64,000 bases of DNA. Origin: Pseudogemmobacter lacusdianii (GTDB lineage: Bacteria; Pseudomonadota; Alphaproteobacteria; Rhodobacterales; Rhodobacteraceae). This document shows, in pieces, positions 3,400-22,245 of this stretch. The notes under the pieces are model-generated. The model was not told the origin of the DNA and did no database searches. It saw nothing but the letters and a program-made list of their open reading frames with translations. Location: contig NZ_JAVDBT010000014.1 of assembly GCF_030848395.1 (NCBI RefSeq), positions 1-64,000 on the forward strand, given 5' to 3'. Every line of letters starts with the position of its first letter. Positions within the stretch are counted from its first letter, which is position 1. A program made the position numbers and the translations under genes.

Positions 3400-4463
3400 T
3401 GGCTTATCTTGACCTGTCGCATCTGGAAAAGTCCTTCGGCACCAACCGCGTGGTGAAGGACTTCACCCTTGGCATCGAGCAGGGCGAGTTTGTCTCGCTG
3501 CTCGGCCCCTCAGGCTGCGGTAAGACCACCGTGCTGCGGATGGTTGCGGGGTTCGAGCAACCCTCGGGCGGCCAGATCATCATCGGCGGCGAGGATGTAA
3601 CGCGGCTGCGCCCCAACCAGCGCAAGATCGGCATGGTGTTCCAAGCCTATGCTTTGTTCCCCAACCTCACCGTGGCCGAGAATGTGGGCTTTGGCCTTAA
3701 AGTCGCAGGCATGGCTGCGGGTGAGCGCAATGAGCGCGTGACCGAGATGCTGGCGCTGATTGGCCTGCCAGAAAAGGGCGGCCATTATCCGTTCCAGCTT
3801 TCGGGCGGCCAACAGCAGCGCGTGGCTTTGGCCCGCGCTTTGGCCCCCCGCCCCAAAGTGCTTTTGCTCGATGAGCCTTTGTCGGCGCTGGACGCCAAGG
3901 TCCGCGTCTCTTTGCGCAACCAAATCCGCCAGATCCAACGCGACCTTGGCATCACCACCATCTTCGTCACCCATGACCAAGAAGAGGCGATGTCGATCTC
4001 GGACCGCATCGTGGTGATGAATGGCGGCATTGCCGAGCAGGTGGGCGAGCCCTTCACCATCTACAACCAACCCGCCACCCGCTTCGTGGCCAATTTCGTC
4101 GGCACCCTGAACACGTTTGAGGCTGTGGTGGATGAGCCCACCACCGGCACCGTCACTTTGGACGGTCAAACCGTCAGCCTTGGCAAAAAGATTGAGCGTT
4201 TGCGCGGTGACAAAGTCACCCTCGCCCTGCGGCCCGAGGCTTTGCATCTGGGCCAAGCCCCCGCGCCCGCGATGCAGCTGCAAGCCACCGTGCGTGAGGT
4301 GCATTTCATGGGTTCGATCATCCGGGTGAAGGCCGAAGTGGCGGACACGATGGTCTCGCTGGATACGTTCAACCGCCCCGATACGCCGCCGCCGCAAGTC
4401 GGTGCCGCGATCCAAGTCCACCTCAATCCGGGTGACTTCATCGCGCTCGACGGCACCGCCTAA
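3399..4463 (+). CDS. ABC transporter ATP-binding protein, PotA/FbpC-like
   Basis: 354 residues, the usual length for the spermidine/iron class of import ATPases. Visible motifs: Walker A GPSGCGKTT (about 36-44), signature LSGGQQQR (about 134), Walker B LLLDEPLSALD (about 155) and switch histidine VTHDQEEAM (about 190). The last 110 residues form a TOBE-like regulatory domain. It energises the importer made by the three preceding genes and is the last gene of that operon, immediately followed by a terminator. All catalytic motifs are intact. Confidence 0.92.
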   Translation: MAYLDLSHLEKSFGTNRVVKDFTLGIEQGEFVSLLGPSGCGKTTVLRMVAGFEQPSGGQIIIGGEDVTRLRPNQRKIGMVFQAYALFPNLTVAENVGFGLKVAGMAAGERNERVTEMLALIGLPEKGGHYPFQLSGGQQQRVALARALAPRPKVLLLDEPLSALDAKVRVSLRNQIRQIQRDLGITTIFVTHDQEEAMSISDRIVVMNGGIAEQVGEPFTIYNQPATRFVANFVGTLNTFEAVVDEPTTGTVTLDGQTVSLGKKIERLRGDKVTLALRPEALHLGQAPAPAMQLQATVREVHFMGSIIRVKAEVADTMVSLDTFNRPDTPPPQVGAAIQVHLNPGDFIALDGTA

Positions 4464-4478
4464 AGCGCCGCCCATCGT

Positions 4479-4509
4479 AAAACGCCTCCGGTCTGGCCGG
4501 AGGCGTTTT
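4479..4509. terminator. bidirectional intrinsic terminator
   Basis: Perfect 13-bp inverted repeat (4479-4491 with 4497-4509, five-base loop) beginning AAAA and ending TTTT. It sits between the convergent ABC ATPase gene and the YhaN-like gene and can end transcription from both sides. Confidence 0.9.
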
Positions 4510-4519
4510 GCTTTTGCCG

Positions 4520-7156
4520 TTAAAGTGCGGTGACCTTTGCCAGCAACCGATCGCCGCCCAAAGGCGCGAAAGCACGCTGGCGGCAGGTCAGCACGATGAT
4601 CTGCTGATCCTGCGCCACCCGGTGCAAAGCGGTGAACATCGCCTCGATCCGGTCATCATCGCTATGCACCAAAGCATCGTCCAAGATCACCGGCACCGGC
4701 CGCCCCGAGCGCGCAAAAAGCCGCGCGAAGGCCAGCCGGGTCAGCACCGCCAACTGCTCACGCGTGCCGCCCGAGAGGATATCCAGCACCTCATCCTGCC
4801 CATCGCGGCTAAGCGCGACGGGCAAAAGGCTGGCGTCATCGATCCGCAACGCCGCCCCCGGATGCAGGATCGAGAGAAGCGGGTTCAGCTCTTGCAACAC
4901 CTCACCGAAATACTCATCCCGCATGGCTTGGCGGGCGCGCTCCAAAGCCTCACGCAGGCGCTTCAAAGCCTGCACCTCGCGCTCATAACGCGCCGCCCGC
5001 GCCAAGGCGGCGGCTTCACGGCCGCGCAACTCGTCTAGGCTTTCTTCAATCCCCTCATCGGCCAAAGCGCCGATCGAGCCGTTGACGCCCGCCAACTCAC
5101 TTTCCAGCCGAATGCGGTCGCGCTGCCGCCCCGCCACGACCGAGCGCAGCCGCGTCACCGCTGCATGTGCCGTGGCAAGATCGGGCGCTTTCGCTTTGAG
5201 ATCATTCAGAATTTCGGAAACCTTGACCTGCGCCGCTTCCAAGCCGGGCTGCGCTGCTTTCAGGTTCAAAAGCTGCGCTGACAGCTCCACCGGATCGCCC
5301 GCCTCAGATTGGATCGCAGCCAGTGCTTGGCCCGCTGATTGCAGCTCGGCCTGTCGCGCAGCGCGGGTTTCGCGCAAGGTGGCATGGCGCGCTTCCGCCT
5401 CGCGCCGCACAGCCTGCGCCTGATCCTCGGCTTGACGCAGCTTGGTAAGTTGCCCCTGCAAGGCGGGCAGATCCTCCACCACCACCTCAGTGGCTTCCCC
5501 CGCTTCTGCGCGGGCCGCAGCCAGCCGGCTTTGCAGCGCCTCAACCCCCTCGGGCGCCAGTTCCGCCAATCGCGCGCGGCCCTCGGCCAAAGCGGTATCA
5601 AGCCTTTGCGCCTCGGACCAAGCGCTGCGCGCGGCAGCGAGATCGGCGCAGCCGCAAGCGCTCAGGAGTTGGGCCAGTTTGGCCTCAGCCTTGGCCAGTT
5701 CCCCCGCCATATCGCCCGCGCCGGAAAGGCCGGGATCAACCGACATCTGCCCAATCCCCGGCAGATCGAAATGCGTCAAACCGCGCAGGCGCAGGGGCGC
5801 ATCGCCCAAAGCAAGGCCCTCTACCGTCACCCGCGCAGCACTGTCATAGCGCAGACTGACCGAGACCCGCCGCGCCTCATCTTGCAAGGCCAGCCGGTCG
5901 CGCGCGGATTGCGCCGCCTCGGCCGCCTCAAGCTGCGCCTTGCTGATCTTAATCAACTGCCGCGCCGCTTGTTGTTCTTCAAGCGCCCCGCGTTGCCGCT
6001 CGGCACGGGCCAGCTCCGCCTCCAATGCCGCGACACGGTCGCGCGCCGCGATGGCAAGCTGCGCGCGCTGCGCCGCTTCCAGCCGGGTCGCAGTCGCCAA
6101 AGCCGCCGCCCGCGCCGTATCGGCCCCAGCGACCGCCGAGGCCTCTTGCTGCGCCGCCGCTTGCGCCAAAGCCTCAGCCTTCGCCGCCTCGTCGCGCGCC
6201 TTGCCGTCCAATTCCTGCGCCCGTTGCAGCCGGGTTCTCACCCCCTCCAGCCGCAGGATCGCATCTTGCCCCTGCTTTGCCGTCAATTGCGCCAGCCGCA
6301 GTTCAGCCTCGGCCTTTTGCAAAGCTTCAGAGTGCTTTTCAGCCGCTTGCAGCGCCGTCTCCGCCGCCGCCAAAGCCGCTTCATCACGCGCGCTCGCCTC
6401 AGGATCAGCCAATGAAGCCAAGTCCTTAGCGATCGAGGCGCGCTGGCGCAGCTCGGCACTCAGCCGTGCGACCTTGCCCTCAAGCACAGCCCTCTCAGCG
6501 GCCATCGCGGCCGCCTCATCCACCGCCCGCGCCCATTCGCCGCCCGCCTTGGGCCGCAACGTGCTGGTCGCCAAACGCGCCAGTTCTTCGCTTACCCGCG
6601 CCAGCACCAGATCCATCCGCCGCCCGCCGGTCATCACCTCAATCTCGCCGGCGACCGAGGAAATCAGGTCGCGCCGCGCCACCAGAGCCCGCTCGCGCTC
6701 GGCCTTCTCGGCCGTGGTATTGCCCTCGGGCTCCATACCCAAAAGCCCCTGCCGCACCCATAAAAGCCCCGACGGCCCGGCCAGCCCCTGCCCGGTCAGC
6801 CGGTCGATCCAAGCCTCGGCCTCATCCTCTTGCGCGATGATGCGGCCTTGGGCGTCCAAAATCCGCGCATTGGCGCGGCCAAGCCAGCGCTTTTCGATGC
6901 GGAAATGGCCCTCGGGCAGCTCAATCTCGACGCTCGCCTCCGGGCTGCCGCCGGAATGGGGTTGCAGCGCCTTCACCGGGGCTTTTGAGCTGCGATGCGG
7001 CTGGAAAAACACCGCATGCAGCCCGTCAAAGAAGGTGGATTTGCCAAATTCATTGGGCTGCGAGAGCACCGAAATGCCATCACCGATGCCCTCAATCCGG
7101 GCGCGTTGCCCGGCAAAACGGCGCAGGTTAGAAAGCTCAATCGCGCGGATTTTCAT
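4520..7156 (-). CDS. YhaN-like SMC/Rad50-type ATPase
   Basis: An 878-residue ATPase built like Rad50/SbcC. The N-terminal half-site has a variant Walker A PNEFGKST (about 34-41; YhaN proteins usually read NEAGKST). A long Ala/Glu/Gln/Arg-rich coiled coil follows (about 200-720), and the C-terminal half-site has the signature LSGGTREQL (about 794) and Walker B VILDDALVHSD (about 823-833). The hinge shows no obvious CxxC zinc hook. It overlaps the nuclease gene upstream by 4 bp (7153-7156), the standard arrangement of YhaO-YhaN pairs, so the products very likely act together on DNA ends. The exact role (repair, recombination or defence) is not established for this group. Confidence 0.85.
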   Translation of the reverse strand: MKIRAIELSNLRRFAGQRARIEGIGDGISVLSQPNEFGKSTFFDGLHAVFFQPHRSSKAPVKALQPHSGGSPEASVEIELPEGHFRIEKRWLGRANARILDAQGRIIAQEDEAEAWIDRLTGQGLAGPSGLLWVRQGLLGMEPEGNTTAEKAERERALVARRDLISSVAGEIEVMTGGRRMDLVLARVSEELARLATSTLRPKAGGEWARAVDEAAAMAAERAVLEGKVARLSAELRQRASIAKDLASLADPEASARDEAALAAAETALQAAEKHSEALQKAEAELRLAQLTAKQGQDAILRLEGVRTRLQRAQELDGKARDEAAKAEALAQAAAQQEASAVAGADTARAAALATATRLEAAQRAQLAIAARDRVAALEAELARAERQRGALEEQQAARQLIKISKAQLEAAEAAQSARDRLALQDEARRVSVSLRYDSAARVTVEGLALGDAPLRLRGLTHFDLPGIGQMSVDPGLSGAGDMAGELAKAEAKLAQLLSACGCADLAAARSAWSEAQRLDTALAEGRARLAELAPEGVEALQSRLAAARAEAGEATEVVVEDLPALQGQLTKLRQAEDQAQAVRREAEARHATLRETRAARQAELQSAGQALAAIQSEAGDPVELSAQLLNLKAAQPGLEAAQVKVSEILNDLKAKAPDLATAHAAVTRLRSVVAGRQRDRIRLESELAGVNGSIGALADEGIEESLDELRGREAAALARAARYEREVQALKRLREALERARQAMRDEYFGEVLQELNPLLSILHPGAALRIDDASLLPVALSRDGQDEVLDILSGGTREQLAVLTRLAFARLFARSGRPVPVILDDALVHSDDDRIEAMFTALHRVAQDQQIIVLTCRQRAFAPLGGDRLLAKVTAL

Positions 7157-8277
7157 GCCTCGATCTCCTGCACCAAGGCATAAAGCCGCGACAAAGCCAA
7201 AGCCGCAAGATCGCGATCCGCCGCCGCCAAAGCCGGGTCGGCGGCTTGGGCGTGCAAAGCATTGGCGGCATGGCGCAAAGCCCCGCCCCGGTCGATCAAG
7301 TCCAGATCCCCCGCGTGCACGTCGGTTCCAAGCCGCGTGAGATCCTGCTCAAACCAGCCGAAATCGGGGGCAATTGCCGCCAACGAAGCCTCAAATCCGG
7401 CGCGTTCGGCCAAGGTCAGACGCCCCGATGCCTCAAGCCGCAAAAGCCGGTCTCGGCGCTGTGGCTCTGGGGGCAATTGCCCCGCCAAAACAGACGCCAC
7501 ATCTTCCCCCGGCAGAAGGTCTAAGCTCAGCCTTTGCCAGCCAAATTGCCCAGTTTCGGCCACCTCCACCTTTGCCGGCGCACCGGCGGCGGTCAGGCTG
7601 ACCAGCAAAGCGCCCGCCGCAGTTTCATGCTTGAAACTGTCCGCCTCGGGCGTGCCGGAATACCAAGTTTCCGCCCCGACCGACATCCGACCATGCCAAT
7701 CGCCCAAGCCGAGATAATCAAGGCCCGAGAGCCGCGCGCGATCGGGCGGAATGATCCCCGGACTGCCCTCATCCGAGGTGAAATCCATGATCGCGCCATG
7801 GCCAAGCCCGATCCGCAAAGCACCTTCGGGCGTTGGCGCCGACATGGATTGCGTCAAATCCCGGCCGGGGCGGCGCTGCGTGCAAGGTGCGGGTAAAAGC
7901 CAAACCTCGGGGGCAAGCTCGACAGGATCAGCCGTGGTGAGCACGGTCAGATTGCCCGGTGCATCGTTCTGGATGCGCCGCCAAAGCTCGGATGCCGCCA
8001 GGCTGTCATGGTTTCCGGGCATCAAGACCCAGCGCAGATCGGCCTCAGACGCCATTGCGCGCAATGCATGGCGCAGGGTCTCGGGCGATGGGGTTTCGGC
8101 GTCGAACGTGTCGCCCGCCAGCAGCACCAGCTGCGCGCCGCCCGCCCGTGCGGCCTCGGCCAAGCGGCGGATCACCGAATGGCGCGCCTCACGCAGACGG
8201 CCGCGGATGTCTTCGGGAAAGCCACCAAAAGCGCGGCCCAGATGCAGGTCCGAGGAATGCAGAAATTTATAGCCCAT
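7153..8277 (-). CDS. YhaO/SbcD-like metallophosphoesterase DNA nuclease
   Basis: 374 residues of the calcineurin-like phosphoesterase family that includes Mre11/SbcD. Metal-binding motifs are all present: DLHLG (Asp10, His12), GDTFD (55-59), GNHD (88-91), a GHG motif and GDWHG. It is the nuclease partner of the ATPase encoded downstream, with which it overlaps by 4 bp. The length and capping domain fit YhaO better than SbcD. Start chosen at MGYKFLHSSD, which places the first motif at the normal distance from the N-terminus. Confidence 0.87.
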   Translation of the reverse strand: MGYKFLHSSDLHLGRAFGGFPEDIRGRLREARHSVIRRLAEAARAGGAQLVLLAGDTFDAETPSPETLRHALRAMASEADLRWVLMPGNHDSLAASELWRRIQNDAPGNLTVLTTADPVELAPEVWLLPAPCTQRRPGRDLTQSMSAPTPEGALRIGLGHGAIMDFTSDEGSPGIIPPDRARLSGLDYLGLGDWHGRMSVGAETWYSGTPEADSFKHETAAGALLVSLTAAGAPAKVEVAETGQFGWQRLSLDLLPGEDVASVLAGQLPPEPQRRDRLLRLEASGRLTLAERAGFEASLAAIAPDFGWFEQDLTRLGTDVHAGDLDLIDRGGALRHAANALHAQAADPALAAADRDLAALALSRLYALVQEIEA

Positions 8278-8386
8278 ATCGCCCTATGCCCCGCGCGCCG
8301 GGGGCACTGGCGGCCCCGATCTGCCCTAACAGGCATATTGCGGTGCGGGGCGCACTCGCGCAAGGCGCGACTGGCGGTGGGCCGGG

Positions 8387-9889
8387 CTAGCTTGGCCGGC
8401 GGAGCCGCTCGCGCAGGCGGCGCAGCCCCTTGATCCGCCCCCAGCCCTTGAACAATCCACGCTTCGAGGTGGCTTCGAACAGCTCATCCGGGCCATTGGG
8501 GTCAAGGATCTCATTCTCGGCCAACCAGCCCGCGAAGCTTGAGAGTTCCGGCAGTTCATAGGGCACCAAAGATCGCCGAGAGCCGCGCAGAGCTTCGACC
8601 GTGGCGATCAAAGAGCCGGTTTCCGCCAGCTTCTCCGTCACTTCCGCCGGTGCGACCCCCAGATGCTCGGCCAAAAGGTCATCGCGCAAAGCGCCAATCT
8701 CATCCGACAGATGTGCATTGCCCGCCTCATCAGCTGAAAGGATGACATCGCATTCGGTGTCGAGCCGCATCGAGCGGTTGTTGAAATTGGACGAGCCGAC
8801 GCGCAGAACATGGTCATCCACCACCATCGCCTTGGCATGGACATAGATCGGCGTGCCGCCCGCCGTCTGGGGGTGATAGATCGCGAAGCGTTTCTTATGG
8901 TCCAGCCGCTGCAATGCCTCAACCAGCTTGGCGCGGGCGGTGTCCATCGCCAGGGGCTCGAGCCAGCCGATCGCGGTGAAAGGGTTAACGATGACAATTT
9001 CGGGCGGATCGGCTTCGATCAGCCGCTCGGCAATCGCCAAGGCGATCTTGCGCGAGGCGAAATACTGGCTTTCGGCATAGATCATCCGCTTGGCACTGCG
9101 GATCATGGCGATCCAAGCGTCCTCGATCTCATGCACGCCCGGAGTGTCGTCCATTTTCGGTATGGTGCGGGCAATGCCAAGCCGCATCTCGGTGAAGGTG
9201 GGCTGCAATGTCTCGGGCCAGCAATCTTGCGGGCTGCCCGCATCGGCTGTTTTAATCGGCGGCAGCGTTTCACCTGTGGCCGCTTGCCAGCGCGCGCGTG
9301 CCAGATCGCCCAGCGCGCCCGCGGCCTCACCATCAAAGGCGCTGGCCGCATCGTGCCAAGGCTGGACAGGCCGGCCCGAGGGGTCCGTGCGCCGAGGGTC
9401 ATCGTCAAGATGCGCGCGCGTGTCCCAGCGCTGCATCGTCATATCGATGCCGCCGCAAAAGGCCATGCTGTCGTCAATCACCACGATCTTCTGGTGATGC
9501 GAACCGGCAAGCGGGTGCTTCGCATCCAGCCGCAAGGTAATGTTTTTGCGGGCTTTCCAGCGCAGGATGGTCAGCAAAGTATTGCCGCGCAGCAAGGTCT
9601 TTAGCGCGCCCGTGTCCCAACGCAGCAGCCGGATCTCCAACTCAGGTCGGCGCGCCGCGAGCCAAAGGATGAAATCCCCCAGCCGCTCTGGTCCGCCATC
9701 TTTCGGGTCACCGAACCTGATCCGCGTGTCGAAATCCCAACCGATCAGCATGATCGACTTTCGCGCCTTCAAAAGCGCCTGACGGGCCGCAACAAAGTAA
9801 TCTGCACCGTCGACGATGAAGGTAAAACGGTCAGCCTGTTCGATGCGCCAGCAATTTTGCTCAACCCGCAGCAGACGGTGTTCCGCCAT
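8387..9889 (-). CDS. phospholipase D-family protein (two HKD motifs)
   Basis: 500 residues with two intact HxKxxxxD active-site motifs, HQKIVVID (132-139) and HAKAMVVD (about 351-358), each followed by the usual Gly/Ser-Asn stretch (GSSNFNNRSM after the second). No membrane anchor is visible at the N-terminus, unlike cardiolipin synthases. The family hydrolyses or transfers phosphodiester groups of phospholipids, or cuts DNA in some members; which applies here cannot be told. It lies on the same strand as the nuclease/ATPase pair, 109 bp upstream of it, and may be co-transcribed. Confidence 0.85.
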   Translation of the reverse strand: MAEHRLLRVEQNCWRIEQADRFTFIVDGADYFVAARQALLKARKSIMLIGWDFDTRIRFGDPKDGGPERLGDFILWLAARRPELEIRLLRWDTGALKTLLRGNTLLTILRWKARKNITLRLDAKHPLAGSHHQKIVVIDDSMAFCGGIDMTMQRWDTRAHLDDDPRRTDPSGRPVQPWHDAASAFDGEAAGALGDLARARWQAATGETLPPIKTADAGSPQDCWPETLQPTFTEMRLGIARTIPKMDDTPGVHEIEDAWIAMIRSAKRMIYAESQYFASRKIALAIAERLIEADPPEIVIVNPFTAIGWLEPLAMDTARAKLVEALQRLDHKKRFAIYHPQTAGGTPIYVHAKAMVVDDHVLRVGSSNFNNRSMRLDTECDVILSADEAGNAHLSDEIGALRDDLLAEHLGVAPAEVTEKLAETGSLIATVEALRGSRRSLVPYELPELSSFAGWLAENEILDPNGPDELFEATSKRGLFKGWGRIKGLRRLRERLRRPS

Positions 9890-10023
9890 AGCCCCTCACT
9901 CTGACAACTCAATGCGTAAAAACTTCGCGGCAATGCCGACTGGCAACGCCGCCCGGGCCGCGCGGTTCCCTCTGGGCAACCTGCCCGCGGTTCACCCAAG
10001 CCGAATCCACAGCACTCTTTCAT

Positions 10024-16752: not shown

Positions 16753-18168
16753 TCAGGTGCCACAGAAGGTCACATAGCGGCCAAAGCTTGATGGCGCTGG
16801 CAACATATAGCGCTCATCCTCGACAAAGGGCTGGGTAACGGCAGCAAGAAGCGCGTGGAAGGGGCGCAGATCACCACCGGTGGCCGCGTGCAAGGCTGCC
16901 TCAACCTGATGGTTGCGCGGGATGACCGCTGGGTTTGCAGCGCGCAAACGCTGAACCGCATCGCGGCCAAGGCGCGCCCGCCAGCGCGGCAGCCAAGCCT
17001 GCATCGCCGTGAAATTCTCGAAAAGCGGGCGCAAGAGCCCCTCGCCTTCCACCGCGCCGGCCAGCCGGTGGAAGGTCAGCGTCCAATCCGCGCCAGTCAT
17101 TGCCGACAGAAGATCCGCAACCAGCGCAGCATCGCCCGGCTCCTCGCCCTCCAACGCCAGTTTGCGCCGCATCTCTGCCGCCCAAGCCGCCTCGTACAGC
17201 GCCGAGATTCCGTCCAAACGCGCATTGGCAATCTCAACCGCTTTGTCGCTGTCGGGATCGATCAATGGCAACAAGGCCTCCAACAACCGCGCCAAATTCC
17301 AGCCAAGGATGAGCGGCTGATTGGCATAGGCATAGCGCCCCTGCCGGTCGATCGAGGAAAACACCGTGCCCGGCGCATAGCCTTCCATAAAGGCGCAAGG
17401 GCCATAGTCGATCGTCTCACCCGACAGCGCCATGTTATCGGTGTTCATCACCCCGTGGATGAAGCCAAGCCCCATCCATTGCGCGATCAGTTTGGCCTGC
17501 CGCGCCGCGACGGCATCGAAAAGCCCCAAGGCCCCCGAGACACCGGGGAAATGCCGCTCCAAAGTGTAATCCATTAAGTCGCGCAGCTTATCCACCTCGC
17601 CCCTTGCGGCCAGAAATTGGAAGCTGCCCACCCTGATATGGCTTGCCGCGATCCGCGCCAGCACGGCGCCTGGCACTGGCCCCTCTTGGCGCAGGATGTC
17701 CTCGCCGGTCGCCACCACCGCCAAAGCCCGCGTCGTCGGCACGCCCAGCGCCTGCATGGCTTCCGAGATCAGATATTCGCGCAGCATCGGACCAATCGCC
17801 GCCTTACCATCGCCGCCGCGCGAAAAGCCGGTGCGGCCCGAGCCTTTCAGCTGCACATCAAAGCGTGCGCCTTGCGGGGTGACGATCTCGCCCAAAAGAT
17901 GCGCACGGCCATCGCCCAAGACCGGGGAGAAGCCGCCGAATTGATGCCCTGCATAGGCCAGTGCCAAAGGATCTGCGCCCGGCGGCAGCTTTGCGCCCGA
18001 AAACCACTCGGCGGCGCCCAGCTGTAACGCCTGCGCATCCAAGCCCAGCTCTTCCGCAAGCTCTTGATTAAGCGCCAAAAGCCTTGGCGCCGGCGCCACA
18101 TCGGGCGCTTGACGCAGATACATGCCCGGCAAATCGCGGGCCCAGCTGTGCGAGAAATGAAAATCCAT
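16753..18168 (-). CDS. selO: SelO family protein adenylyltransferase (YdiU)
   Basis: 471 residues of the pseudokinase-fold SelO family, which transfers AMP from ATP to Ser, Thr or Tyr of target proteins and is linked to redox stress. Family blocks are intact: YAGHQFGGFSPVLGDGRA, LKGSGRTGFSRGGDGKA, HGVMNTDNM with the catalytic Asp, and DYGPCAFME. The C-terminus ends CGT, placing a Cys at the third position from the end, where eukaryotic SelO carries selenocysteine. MDFHFSHSWARDLPG at 18168 is the normal start; the open frame extends 13 codons further without reason. Targets in this organism are unknown. Confidence 0.92.
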   Translation of the reverse strand: MDFHFSHSWARDLPGMYLRQAPDVAPAPRLLALNQELAEELGLDAQALQLGAAEWFSGAKLPPGADPLALAYAGHQFGGFSPVLGDGRAHLLGEIVTPQGARFDVQLKGSGRTGFSRGGDGKAAIGPMLREYLISEAMQALGVPTTRALAVVATGEDILRQEGPVPGAVLARIAASHIRVGSFQFLAARGEVDKLRDLMDYTLERHFPGVSGALGLFDAVAARQAKLIAQWMGLGFIHGVMNTDNMALSGETIDYGPCAFMEGYAPGTVFSSIDRQGRYAYANQPLILGWNLARLLEALLPLIDPDSDKAVEIANARLDGISALYEAAWAAEMRRKLALEGEEPGDAALVADLLSAMTGADWTLTFHRLAGAVEGEGLLRPLFENFTAMQAWLPRWRARLGRDAVQRLRAANPAVIPRNHQVEAALHAATGGDLRPFHALLAAVTQPFVEDERYMLPAPSSFGRYVTFCGT

Positions 18169-18493
18169 CAAGCAGATATGGCAAGCCACCGCCGCTGAGG
18201 CAAGCACTTGAGGCCCTTGCCCTTCAGCAGAGCAAGCCTCAGCGCAGCGGTGGAGCTCCGCCTCAATCTCTATTCTGGGCAGAATGGTCGCGGCAATAGA
18301 AGTCGAACCTACGCCGATGCCGCGCCTCCAACCAAAGAAACTTCAAGTCTGCCAGAGACTTACCGCCCGTCTGCCAACCACAATCGCTCAAAACGCGGCC
18401 CCGAGAAGCGCAACACCCCCCTTTAAAGCAGGCGCTGCGTCATTAGCCTCTTGCTCGCGATGTCGATCGCGAAGGCGCGTGCAGTTGGCGTCA
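18169..18493. other. intergenic region holding a tRNA-like 3' end
   Basis: 325 bp between the selO start and the sulfotransferase stop without a credible gene. It contains the degenerate tRNA-Pro 3' copy at 18285-18313 and, upstream of it on the minus strand, a small hairpin (AAGTCT/AGACTT, about 18345-18361). Promoter elements for selO should lie in the lower part; none is unmistakable. Confidence 0.5.
18285..18313 (-). repeat. degenerate copy of the tRNA-Pro 3' end (att-like)
   Basis: 25 of 29 bases match the 3' end of the tRNA-Pro gene at 21541-21569, in the same orientation, including CCA, acceptor strand and T arm. Similarity stops at the end of the T arm. A partial tRNA 3' end in direct orientation downstream of the intact tRNA is the usual trace of site-specific integration. 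The T-loop bases are common to all tRNAs, so part of the match is not independent evidence. Confidence 0.5.
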
Positions 18494-20056
18494 TCAGGAG
18501 GATTGACTGTACGCCTCCGCTTGACCTTCCAGATGCGCCAAGATCGGCCCCAACTTCTCCTTATGCGGCTTCCAGCGCGACACCGAGCTTTTATAAAGCG
18601 GCTGATGCACTTGCCACTTGGAGATCGTTTGCGCGACATGCCCATTCGCCCGGTGATCAAGCATGGCTTCCTCGAAAGGTAAGCCCAGAAACTGGCATAC
18701 GCGCCGCATCTGCATATCCGGAGCGCTGACGACATCCTCATAACGCACAGAAAGGATGGCCTCTGGGTAGCGTGATGTCCAATGGCTCATGAGTTCGAGA
18801 TACAGCTTGTAATACCAGCCAAGGTCATCCAGTCGCTCGGCATAGGGGTGGTGTTGAGACTTAAGCGGCGCGGTGTAAATGGCAACGCAAGCGTCCAGCG
18901 GGTGCCGCATGGCATGGATTATCCGCGCTTTTGGGAAAAACCGGAGTATCAGGCCGATATTCAAGAAGTTGTGCAGCAGCTTATCGACATACAGCACGTC
19001 ATTTCGGCCGTTACGCAGCCGCACCAACCCCATATAGCCTTCTGCAATCTCTGGCCAAGCTTCGGGCGGCAGGCCAAGAACGGTTTGCAAAAAATCATCT
19101 GGTTTGTCGTTGTATAATCCAAGCATCCGCGAGATCCGCGGCATGTGTAAGCGTTCGCCCGCGCCGTGAATTCTGCTGTGACCGGCCAGAAACTTCTCCA
19201 AAAGGGTCGATCCGCAGCGCGGCATGCCAACGATAAAGATTGGCCGCTCTTCGCTTGAAGAAAGCCCCAGAGGAAGCTGACTGTCGCTAAGCATCGCCGC
19301 CGCAATGGTAAGCTCAAAACGATTGCGGTCAAAATCGGCAGGCCATTCGGCCTTTGCCGCGATCACCCGGTCAAAGCCCGCCGTCGCTTGACCACTCTCG
19401 ATCAGGCACTTGGACGCGCAATGCTGCAAGCTCCTGCGGGCCTCGGGTCGGCTTTCTTCTGCAAGGGTGGCCTCGATCCTCGCCAGAAGTGCGCTGCCGT
19501 CAGATTGCTTCTCAAGGTAACACAGCCCTCTCAGTCCTGCGACCTTATGGGACGGATCGCGCGCCAGCCGTTCATAAAGCTCTCGAGCCGCCTCAATCTG
19601 GCCCAGAATGGCCAAGTTATCGGCCTGACGAAGCAAGACCTCCTGAGAACCTCTGGAAGCTTTGTTTGCCTTGGCCAGAATGATGCGCTCATCCTCGAAC
19701 TGCTCCAGCGCGCGATAGCAATTGGCCAAATTGCCAAGAAATATGACGTTGCCAGCCTCTAGCTCTACAGCCTGCTGCAAAAAGGGCAAGCCGAACTCGA
19801 AGCTTTGGTTTGCGAGATGCGCAAAGCCAAGGTCATTGAGCGCGGATGCATCATTCGGTTTGCCAGCCAAAACCCGTTCAAAGCATAAGATCGCCTCTGA
19901 CGGTCGCTCAAGCTCAAGCAGAACCTCCCCAAGACCGCGCCAAATAATAACATTTGTAGGATCGGAGATTGCGGCCTCTGATAGCTGCTCTGCCGCGGCT
20001 TCAAGCTCCCCCGCCTGCCGAAGCTCGGCAGCCTTCTTCATAATGCCATTGATCAT
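18494..20056 (-). CDS. tetratricopeptide-repeat sulfotransferase
   Basis: 520 residues. Residues 1 to about 170 are TPR-like helical repeats. A spacer follows, then a sulfotransferase domain with the 5'-phosphosulfate loop GMPRCGSTLLEKFL (about 274-287) and the 3'-phosphate motif MRHPLDACVAIY (about 381-392). Such proteins transfer sulfate from PAPS to a peptide, glycan or small molecule; the acceptor is unknown. It lies alone on the minus strand in a region less GC-rich than its neighbours and is probably acquired. Both nucleotide-binding motifs are intact, so it may be active. Confidence 0.88.
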   Translation of the reverse strand: MINGIMKKAAELRQAGELEAAAEQLSEAAISDPTNVIIWRGLGEVLLELERPSEAILCFERVLAGKPNDASALNDLGFAHLANQSFEFGLPFLQQAVELEAGNVIFLGNLANCYRALEQFEDERIILAKANKASRGSQEVLLRQADNLAILGQIEAARELYERLARDPSHKVAGLRGLCYLEKQSDGSALLARIEATLAEESRPEARRSLQHCASKCLIESGQATAGFDRVIAAKAEWPADFDRNRFELTIAAAMLSDSQLPLGLSSSEERPIFIVGMPRCGSTLLEKFLAGHSRIHGAGERLHMPRISRMLGLYNDKPDDFLQTVLGLPPEAWPEIAEGYMGLVRLRNGRNDVLYVDKLLHNFLNIGLILRFFPKARIIHAMRHPLDACVAIYTAPLKSQHHPYAERLDDLGWYYKLYLELMSHWTSRYPEAILSVRYEDVVSAPDMQMRRVCQFLGLPFEEAMLDHRANGHVAQTISKWQVHQPLYKSSVSRWKPHKEKLGPILAHLEGQAEAYSQSS

Positions 20057-20133
20057 AGAGCCATCTTATCTGGTGACGCGTTATTATTTGCCTCTTTGGG
20101 ACCACAGAAGCAGCCCCAAAGAGAACTTATGCC

Positions 20134-20880
20134 TTAGAACTTATAGGCCAGACCGATAACGAGCTCAGTCTGTTCCAGTTCGATCGTGGGCGCATCACCG
20201 ATCGAGAAACTATGATCCCCGTAATCGCTGTAATTCACCTCGATCCTGCCGAGCCAGTTGTTGGTAAACGCATGTTCAGCACCGGCGCCAAAGGTCCAAC
20301 CGGTCATGGTTGCACTTTCACTAGCCCCCTCGCTGATGAGTTTAACTTTACTCGCGGCAACACCACCGGCCACGTACAGCAACGTGCGATCCAGAGCGGT
20401 ACCGACCCGAAGCCGCAGAGCAGCATTCAGGCCCTGCTCAAACGCATTTTCGCCGCTCAAAATGTCGGTGTTCGCATGCCCGATCGAACCCTCAACGCCG
20501 TAAACCAAGCCATTGCGGTCCCAGTTGTGGCCGATAAAGACCGACGCCGAAATACCCGAGGCTGAATGCGAGGACGTGCTCGCCACTGGGTCTGAGCCAG
20601 TGCCAGTGCTATAGCCACTGCCACTGCCACTGCCACTGCCCATCCCACTACCACCGCTAGTGATACCGCCAGCTGAGGTTTGGGCACTTGCAGTCAGTCG
20701 ATTGCGCTTACCACCAAGCGATCCACCGACGTAAAAACCTTCCCAAGAGAAGGCAGGCGCGGCAGAGACCTTTGCGGGAGCGGCTTCTTCATAGTGCTCT
20801 GCCAGCCCGCCAGCACTCGCACTAGTAGTAGCAGCAACCGAAGCCGCAAGTGCGATTGCCAATTTAGACACGTAAGACAT
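20134..20880 (-). CDS. outer-membrane beta-barrel protein with Gly/Ser-rich loop
   Basis: 248 residues with a signal peptide (about 1-23, SASA cleavage). The rest alternates like an eight-stranded Omp25/OmpA-type barrel (SWEGFYVGGSLGG near the start, aromatic C-terminus GLAYKF). An insert at about residues 70-115 is a low-complexity Gly/Ser/Thr stretch, partly encoded by a tandem GCCACT hexamer, and probably forms a surface loop. Such proteins are common surface antigens in alphaproteobacteria; no transport role can be claimed. It neighbours the sulfotransferase and shares its lower GC content. Confidence 0.82.
   Translation of the reverse strand: MSYVSKLAIALAASVAATTSASAGGLAEHYEEAAPAKVSAAPAFSWEGFYVGGSLGGKRNRLTASAQTSAGGITSGGSGMGSGSGSGSGYSTGTGSDPVASTSSHSASGISASVFIGHNWDRNGLVYGVEGSIGHANTDILSGENAFEQGLNAALRLRVGTALDRTLLYVAGGVAASKVKLISEGASESATMTGWTFGAGAEHAFTNNWLGRIEVNYSDYGDHSFSIGDAPTIELEQTELVIGLAYKF
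20614..20640. repeat. tandem hexamer GCCACT inside the outer-membrane protein gene
   Basis: Four and a half perfect GCCACT units, encoding a Gly-Ser run on the minus strand. Changes in copy number would lengthen or shorten the surface loop without breaking the frame. Confidence 0.8.
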
Positions 20881-21540
20881 TTAGATATAACTCCAAGATT
20901 CGCTAGTAAATACAGCGCCTTGCAGTGAACCACCCCAGGTCAACACCACCCACCTTTACACAATTAGGGGTTGCAGAGATGTAACACGGCGCAGTGCGAT
21001 ACCGTCGCTCCAATGCGCGTGATCGACCGAGCGGCAGGCTGCCGCGGGCTTGGCTGTTCTGATGTTCCGAATTCTGCCAAAATAGCTGATTTACTGGGGC
21101 TAGGACTTGTGTCGATCACCACAAAAGGAATCTGTTCCCGCCGCTTTTGGCGGCGCGACACTGCCAGCCTCACCCATTTATCGATCACGACTTCAGTGGG
21201 ATTATGTTTATATTTTCCAAGGGATCACGCCTTTGTGATGCAAGCGGGTGAGCCGACCCACCTAAAATGCTGCCCCGAAGATATCTGCTCCGCTGAGATG
21301 ATCGCGATGCCCTCAATGGATGACGCGACAAGCTCATAATGCGGCCTAAGTTGCAACGCTACGATGCGCATGCCTCAGCCGCGACGCGGCCGCCACATGT
21401 GAGAAATGCGTCGCGCCTCACCCTGCCTGGGGATGGAAACGATGACAAGCTGGCGCCAGTTCGTAAGGCCAAGCTGGCCGAACAGGTACCAAGTCGAAAA
21501 ATGGAGGGAGTGAATGGCAGGTCAGACACCTGCGAAATGA
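20881..21540. other. 660-bp low-GC gap without a recognisable gene
   Basis: Short open frames exist on both strands (for example 20964-21188 minus and 20971-21339 plus), but they overlap each other, resemble no family known to me and lack Shine-Dalgarno sites. Composition is the lowest of the window (about 42% G+C at 21181-21240). It may be decayed mobile DNA between the outer-membrane protein gene and the tRNA. Confidence 0.5.
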
Positions 21541-21617
21541 TGGTCGGGGCGATAGGATTCGAACCTACGACCTACGGTACCCAAAACCGTCGCGCTACCA
21601 GGCTGCGCTACGCCCCG
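21541..21617 (-). tRNA. tRNA-Pro (anticodon TGG)
   Basis: A complete 77-base cloverleaf on the minus strand with encoded CCA. The seven-base acceptor CGGGGCG pairs with CGCCCCG; the D arm reads GCGCAGCCTGGTAGCGC, the anticodon loop TTTTGGG gives TGG, and the T arm has GTTCGAATC. It decodes proline CCN codons. Its 3' end is the presumed integration site of the neighbouring insert. Confidence 0.96.
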
Positions 21618-21669: not shown

Positions 21670-22245
21670 TTATTCGCAAGACCATGCCGCATTGGGGCCG
21701 ATCTGCGGATGGCGCAGCTGCGCGCCGGGGCGAATCCCCAGTCGCTCGGCCAGACCGCCATTGATTTCAAGCACATATTGCACAGATTCGCCGCCGTCGA
21801 TCGGCGTCTCATCCAAGGGCTTTGCCATGGAATGCACGCGAGTGACCTGTCCCGCAGCATCGGCAAAGATGATATCTAGCGGAATGAGCGTGTTTTTCAT
21901 CCAAAAGCGCGCCGGCCCCGGACGCTCATAGACAAAAAGCATCCCCCGGCCCGGATCCATCGCCGCGCGCCCCATCAATCCTTGCGCACGCTCAGCCGCA
22001 TCATCGGCCACTTCCACGCCAAAGCGCTCAGACCCGCCCTCCCAGCGCAGATCTACGCGCCCCTGCGCACAAGCCGAGGCTGCAGACGCCGGACCATACC
22101 CGCCCAGTGAAAAACCCAAGCTCAGGCCCAGCAAAAGTGCAACTGGCACCAGAACTCGGCGCGGGGCCTTCGCCCCGACCGCCGCGCTCTGAACGCCAAG
22201 CCGCGTCACTCTGTTGGTTCGCGGTCGCGCAGCGCCGCTTCCCAT
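21670..22245 (-). CDS. DUF192 family exported protein
   Basis: 191 residues with a long basic leader and a hydrophobic segment (about 32-56) that should act as signal peptide or anchor. A DUF192 domain follows (RAQGLMGRAAMDPGRGMLFVY, FWMKNTLIPLDIIFAD, VQYVLEINGG). The family has no assigned biochemical function. The ATG at 22245 lies 40 bp inside the preceding cold-shock gene; the long Arg-rich lead before the hydrophobic segment makes a later start possible. It is probably co-transcribed with the cold-shock gene, a pairing I recall from relatives. Confidence 0.8.
   Translation of the reverse strand: MGSGAARPRTNRVTRLGVQSAAVGAKAPRRVLVPVALLLGLSLGFSLGGYGPASAASACAQGRVDLRWEGGSERFGVEVADDAAERAQGLMGRAAMDPGRGMLFVYERPGPARFWMKNTLIPLDIIFADAAGQVTRVHSMAKPLDETPIDGGESVQYVLEINGGLAERLGIRPGAQLRHPQIGPNAAWSCE

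Follow-up and report, generated by a model that had tools for sequence, protein, structure and literature searches.

A probable remnant of a mobile element in the tRNA-Pro(TGG) gene of Pseudogemmobacter lacusdianii

What occupies the space between the transfer RNA (tRNA) gene tRNA-Pro(TGG) and selO in Pseudogemmobacter lacusdianii, and how did it come to be there? The DNA analyzed here, referred to as the window, is the stretch of 64,000 nucleotides (nt) at positions 1 to 64,000 of contig NZ_JAVDBT010000014.1, in which ARAGORN identified a single tRNA gene, tRNA-Pro(TGG). From the sequence of the window, an initial annotation had proposed a decayed island at this gene, bounded at its far end by a partial copy of the tRNA 3′ end. 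Comparison with related genomes and known elements leads us to consider positions 18285–21540 a likely remnant (probability roughly 0.8) of a mobile element inserted in tRNA-Pro(TGG), either a temperate phage or a phage-derived island, with an integrase of the type found in Paracoccus phage vB_PyeM_Pyei1 (hereafter Pyei1).

The tRNA-Pro site in related genomes

Thirteen genomes of the genus were sampled, including that of the window and those of 12 congeners. All 13 encode both the DUF192 protein and SelO, whose genes flank the locus, and tRNA-Pro(TGG) is located at most about 2 kb downstream of the DUF192 gene within the sequence read from each of the 12 congeners. Two of the 12 have an insert-free site, in which selO starts 46 nt (G003) or 99 nt (G009) past tRNA-Pro, compared with 3373 nt in the genome of the window. 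The host flanks that enclose the insert of the window thus lie next to each other in these two sister species, and this is the empty site in relatives that the initial annotation had named as support. Nor is the gene order conserved across the genus, which would have spoken against the proposed island: besides the two insert-free genomes, seven of the 12 congeners have an integrase or pieces of one at this place.

The other congeners vary further. The start of selO is 405 nt from tRNA-Pro in G010, where a frame of 128 amino acids (aa) was considered as an integrase and not accepted (tblastn E 5.5). In G011, a different gene encoding a NO VEIN C-terminal domain is present at tRNA-Pro, with selO about 4 kb off and in opposite orientation. 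The contig of G002 stops 36 nt past tRNA-Pro, and its selO contig starts approximately 380 nt before selO with an 84-residue open frame that has no Pfam match (loci L033 and L153); these assembly breaks suggest another insertion or a repeat there. The selO distance of G033 rests on a two-letter motif and was left out.

The inserted DNA also deviates in composition. As the initial annotation had noted, its guanine-plus-cytosine (GC) content is low, 0.557 against 0.622 in the window, and it is the minimum among stretches of 3.2 kb: in a scan of such stretches across the whole window at steps of 50 bases, 0.25% were equally low (n = 3, each overlapping the insert). The dinucleotide bias of the insert is in the top 2% of the window. 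A region at 4001–8400, with its start near 4.4 kb, deviates in dinucleotides more than the insert and more than any other part of the window.

Deletions at tRNA sites are common, and the genes between tRNA-Pro and selO might accordingly be ancestral and deleted in the sister species. This is extremely unlikely considering the GC content of the insert and the lack of close relatives in the congeners, where relatives of its TPR-sulfotransferase occur in three of 12 genomes (G003, G009, and G002) with 28–31% identity and its second gene, encoding an outer-membrane barrel, has one weak relative (G011, E 7e-10). Among the loci read, none showed the same gene pair beside tRNA-Pro in an outgroup.

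A displaced copy of the tRNA 3′ end

The direct repeat of the tRNA-Pro 3′ end with four mismatches, on which the initial annotation had built its proposal, was confirmed at the selO side of the insert. Compared over 31 nt, the copy at 18285 scores 26/31, and the runner-up place on either strand of the window scores 19/31. Because tRNAs share the T-loop and CCA, the genome's own tRNA ends were also compared at 18285. Over 29 nt, Pro(tgg) fits with 25 matches, Pro(cgg) with 22, Asn with 21, and the others with at most 19. This comparison used 42 tRNA entries: the loci around all 41 tRNA matches in the genome held 44, from which exact repeats of label and sequence were removed; some of the remaining entries share one tRNA type. 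Pro(TGG) was the best of the 42, which answers the concern that this match might be no better than those of other tRNA ends. At the T-stem positions that differ between the tRNA of the window and that of G003, the copy, inspected by eye, carries the letters of the window, suggesting that the duplication postdates the present form of the window's T-arm.

The T-loop and CCA, common to all tRNAs, together with the fit of Pro(cgg) and Asn at the same place and the silence of Rfam on the copy at E ≤ 1, could be taken to mean that the match arose by chance or from a tRNA pseudogene and that the two genes beside it are ordinary strain-specific ones, gained or lost without tRNA-targeted integration. 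We regard this as very unlikely, since 25/29 is higher than the 18–21 of 29 reached at best by tRNA 3′ ends elsewhere in the window. The insert-free sites, moreover, define the insert without reference to the copy, and the copy is found at its edge. The copy is placed and oriented as tRNA-targeted integration would leave it, and both the insert-free genomes and the preference for Pro(TGG) support this interpretation of the geometry.

Integrases that use tRNA-Pro(TGG)

The tRNA-Pro(TGG) gene is a recurrent phage docking site in the genus. Phage-type tyrosine integrases or pieces of them that read towards the tRNA are present at tRNA-Pro in the seven congeners mentioned above (G001, G004, G005, G006, G007, G008, and G012), with open frames of 331 to 397 aa in G004, G006, G007, and G008 and of 158 aa in G001; the motif test found no integrase frame in G005 and G012. 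The integrase of G004 contains a Phage_integrase domain (Pfam), and terminase domains were identified near the integrase above the Pfam cut-off in G004 and G006 and below it in G007. In the phage collection, the best match of the G004 integrase is that of Pyei1 (MK291445), with 66% identity over 99% of the query. In the MK291445 record, an attachment site of 52 nt is annotated in tRNA-Pro(TGG), and the same 52-nt attB is given in Table 2 of the account of this active phage (PMC6536676). The core of this type begins in the anticodon stem. Contig C15 of G008 (L157) contains, at 9911–9961, an exact 51-nt copy of the 3′ part of its tRNA-Pro(TGG) that starts at the first base of the phage core; a piece of an integrase (27 aa, E 4e-4) comes after it. 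This second copy is probably a tandem or orphan attachment site.

The family was searched through one genome per genus (198 genomes), separately from the congeners. Related integrases gave 27 matches in 24 of the 198 genomes, beside tRNA-Cys (19), tRNA-Trp (2), tRNA-Arg (2), tRNA-Pro(TGG) (1), and tRNA-Met (1), or with no tRNA in the locus (2); one of the two tRNA-Trp loci also contains tRNA-Arg. The closest of the 27, that of G125 (59%), adjoins tRNA-Pro(TGG). In these loci (L195–L221), the tRNA that neighbors this one integrase family changes from branch to branch and is in most cases tRNA-Cys; the set is suited to the study of target change by integrases. The window's own genome has no integrase of this type at E ≤ 1e-20, and no helper of the Pyei1 type was therefore found there.

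A probable integrase scrap beside the tRNA

The initial annotation held that no integrase is left, a statement that now needs revision. The integrases of G004 and G006 match a 28-residue stretch on the tRNA side of the insert with 14 identical residues (E 0.03–0.05), in the place and direction expected of an integrase: its reading direction and its distance from the tRNA are those of the intact congener genes. In a six-frame search of the window, a profile of three such integrases gave this stretch its top rank (E 0.0085); when run on the 660 bp without recognized gene (20881–21540) alone, it gave E 4.4e-5. Across 533 kb of the window and its relatives, a background that deliberately included integrase-bearing loci, all other hits of at least 9.1 bits were integrases or fragments at tRNA-Pro sites or at the G008 copy, and the reversed-sequence control reached 7.8 bits at most. 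The Arg of the YDAR motif, a catalytic residue, is changed, and this change together with the stop codon indicates that the scrap is dead.

The 20 nt adjoining the tRNA resemble the integrase-side arms of congeners more closely than expected, with scores equalled by 219 of 127,960 window 20-mers for the best arm and by 98 of 127,960 for the summed arms; this anchored test was devised after the outcome of a gapped comparison of the 65 nt beside the tRNA. In the gapped comparison, a clear likeness is seen to G007 alone, with 1 of 1000 shuffles as good.

Cargo genes and feature coordinates

The content of the insert is as initially described, namely a TPR-sulfotransferase, an outer-membrane protein, and the 660 bp mentioned above (Table 1). 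The sulfotransferase part of the former is sequence kin of the CurM sulfotransferase and of protein-tyrosine sulfotransferases (PDB). At a cut-off of E ≤ 1e-60, none of the 197 other family genomes matched this protein, and 88 of 198 genomes match at E ≤ 1e-25, with 31% identity for the best other one; the window's own genome encodes a second sulfotransferase relative (29%) at another place. Of 21 loci with sulfotransferase relatives, most of them read with about 1.5 kb of flank, none contained the barrel gene. Neither cargo protein matched known defense families. Searches elsewhere for the cargo yielded 51 plasmid records, all below 60% identity, and two distant loci in genome contigs. A viral origin of the cargo was considered and not accepted, with no viral-contig relative of either gene in a search for close relatives and one phage record with a partial sulfotransferase match. 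PHROGs gave one weak hit on the insert, of unknown function, and promoter and terminator scans gave signals no better than shuffles. As a guess, the two proteins might sulfate or display a surface protein to the benefit of the element, with which both genes may have arrived.

Table 1. Features of the tRNA-Pro(TGG) locus in window coordinates
Feature	Position	Strand	Basis
Host flank selO	16753..18207	-	Pfam SelO
Displaced, decayed copy of the tRNA-Pro 3′ end	18285..18313	-	25/29 match
Inserted low-GC DNA	18314..21540		Absent from the same site in G003 and G009
TPR-sulfotransferase, 520 aa	18494..20056	-	Pfam
Small outer-membrane beta-barrel with Gly/Ser-rich stretch, 248 aa	20134..20880	-	Pfam OMP_b-brl
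Probable tyrosine integrase remnant, YDAR..AATR motif, one stop codon	21306..21389	+	14/28 identities
Element-arm-like 20 nt adjoining the tRNA	21521..21540		Likeness to congener integrase-side arms
Intact tRNA-Pro(TGG), attachment target	21541..21617	-	ARAGORN; Rfam tRNA, 66.6 bits
Host flank DUF192 gene	21670..22245	-	Pfam

Origin of the insert

Several results weigh against a remnant with a Pyei1-type integrase. The displaced copy covers 29 of the 52 positions of the known core, that is, the T-arm and acceptor part, and the 5′ ~23 nt are missing. The scrap escaped a profile of 30 integrase sequences, mostly from other tRNA sites, at a threshold of E ≤ 1. In the gapped comparison of the 65 nt beside the tRNA, 45 of 1000 shuffles were as good as Pyei1, 62 of 1000 as good as G001, and 135 to 529 of 1000 as good as the remaining integrase-bearing congeners. 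No phage genes were recognized in the insert by Pfam or PHROGs, and a close-relative search of viral contigs found no relative of either cargo gene. The statistics for the scrap are modest and the broader profile misses it; as judged from residue identity, position, and direction, it is probably an integrase remnant and may be what is left of the integrase of this very insertion.

The truncated copy bears on which integrase was at work. Its extension into the anticodon arm failed (599 of 1000 shuffles matched the upstream part as well), and the exact integrase of the element is uncertain because 29 of 52 core positions are retained. Attachment sites in tRNA genes are divided into sub-locations. 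Either the island-side half of the copy was deleted, or the copy was made by a different crossover. The latter would fit two successive visitors, one with a T-arm crossover that left the cargo and the T-arm-only copy, and one of the Pyei1 type that left the scrap and the arm. The copy ends sharply at the T-stem, while a core of the Pyei1 type reaches back into the anticodon stem, and the second tRNA copy with its integrase fragment on another contig of G008 indicates that serial or tandem visits occur. Simple deletion of the island-side half nevertheless accounts for the same pattern, and no second integrase type was found beside tRNA-Pro in the congeners examined, among the matches listed; we consider two visitors unlikely.

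We favor the remnant of a single element. A tyrosine integrase would have recombined it into the 3′ half of tRNA-Pro(TGG), its own attachment site restoring an intact tRNA while the old 3′ end was displaced to the far side, beside selO. Later deletion and point mutation would have erased the bulk of the element together with almost the entire integrase, and the same decay would have worn down the displaced copy, leaving the two cargo genes. The repeated use of tRNA-Pro by such integrases in the genus is consistent with this course, and the inserted element may have been a phage.

T-arm variation of tRNA-Pro(TGG)

The 3′ strand of the tRNA-Pro(TGG) T-arm has six forms in the 13 genomes. A single base separates the tRNA-Pro of the window from that of G013, which belongs to another genus, but no congener shares the form found in the window. 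A comparison across tRNAs used four of the 13 genomes, with the partly listed G005 excluded, and retained those acceptor groups (n = 20) that occurred in three or more genomes and had a single form in each; repeat rows were left out of typing, four of G008 (33/37 typed) and one of G006 (28/29), their types being already represented. With three forms, tRNA-Pro is the second most variable of the 20 groups, among which one has four forms, three have two, and 15 are invariant. The tRNA with acceptor end TGGGGGCACCA exceeds tRNA-Pro, with four T-arm forms in four genomes, and may be another integration hotspot. Tentatively, and with considerable doubt, repeated phage integration might rewrite the T-arm of this essential tRNA gene, each form perhaps being the attachment site of a past visitor; the forms may instead have arisen by point mutation with compensation rather than by exchange of the 3′ half by elements.

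Comparison with known systems

The window and Pyei1, an active temperate myophage, have the target tRNA-Pro(TGG) in common, and the Pyei1 integrase is 66% identical to that of G004, which is of the type that occurs beside this tRNA in congeners. The integrase gene of Pyei1 directly adjoins the attachment site and reads towards it; in that place and direction, the window has the 28-residue integrase-like scrap alone. The 52-nt core is not found at both ends of the insert, the last 29 nt being recognizable at the far end, and neither Pfam nor PHROGs showed structural or packaging genes in the insert, such genes being carried close to the integrase by G004 and G006.

In the Islander collection (PMC4383910), tRNA-integrated islands consist of foreign DNA between an intact tRNA gene and a displaced 3′ fragment of it that points the same way. 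The locus of the window shares this layout, with an intact tRNA at one end, a direct 3′ fragment at the far end, and an unoccupied site in relatives. It differs from those islands in that its fragment is decayed and its integrase dead, with the probable scrap in place of an intact integrase gene. To the initial proposal, the present analysis adds the class of element that uses tRNA-Pro and, probably, the integrase remnant. Elements with tyrosine integrases are known at tRNA genes, tRNA-Pro(TGG) included, and the relic thus belongs to a known kind, seen here after loss of the integrase and most of the content, a stage that a finder requiring an intact integrase would overlook. With Pyei1-type elements and relic at the same tRNA, the genus offers a natural series from insert-free site to integrase-bearing element to relic.
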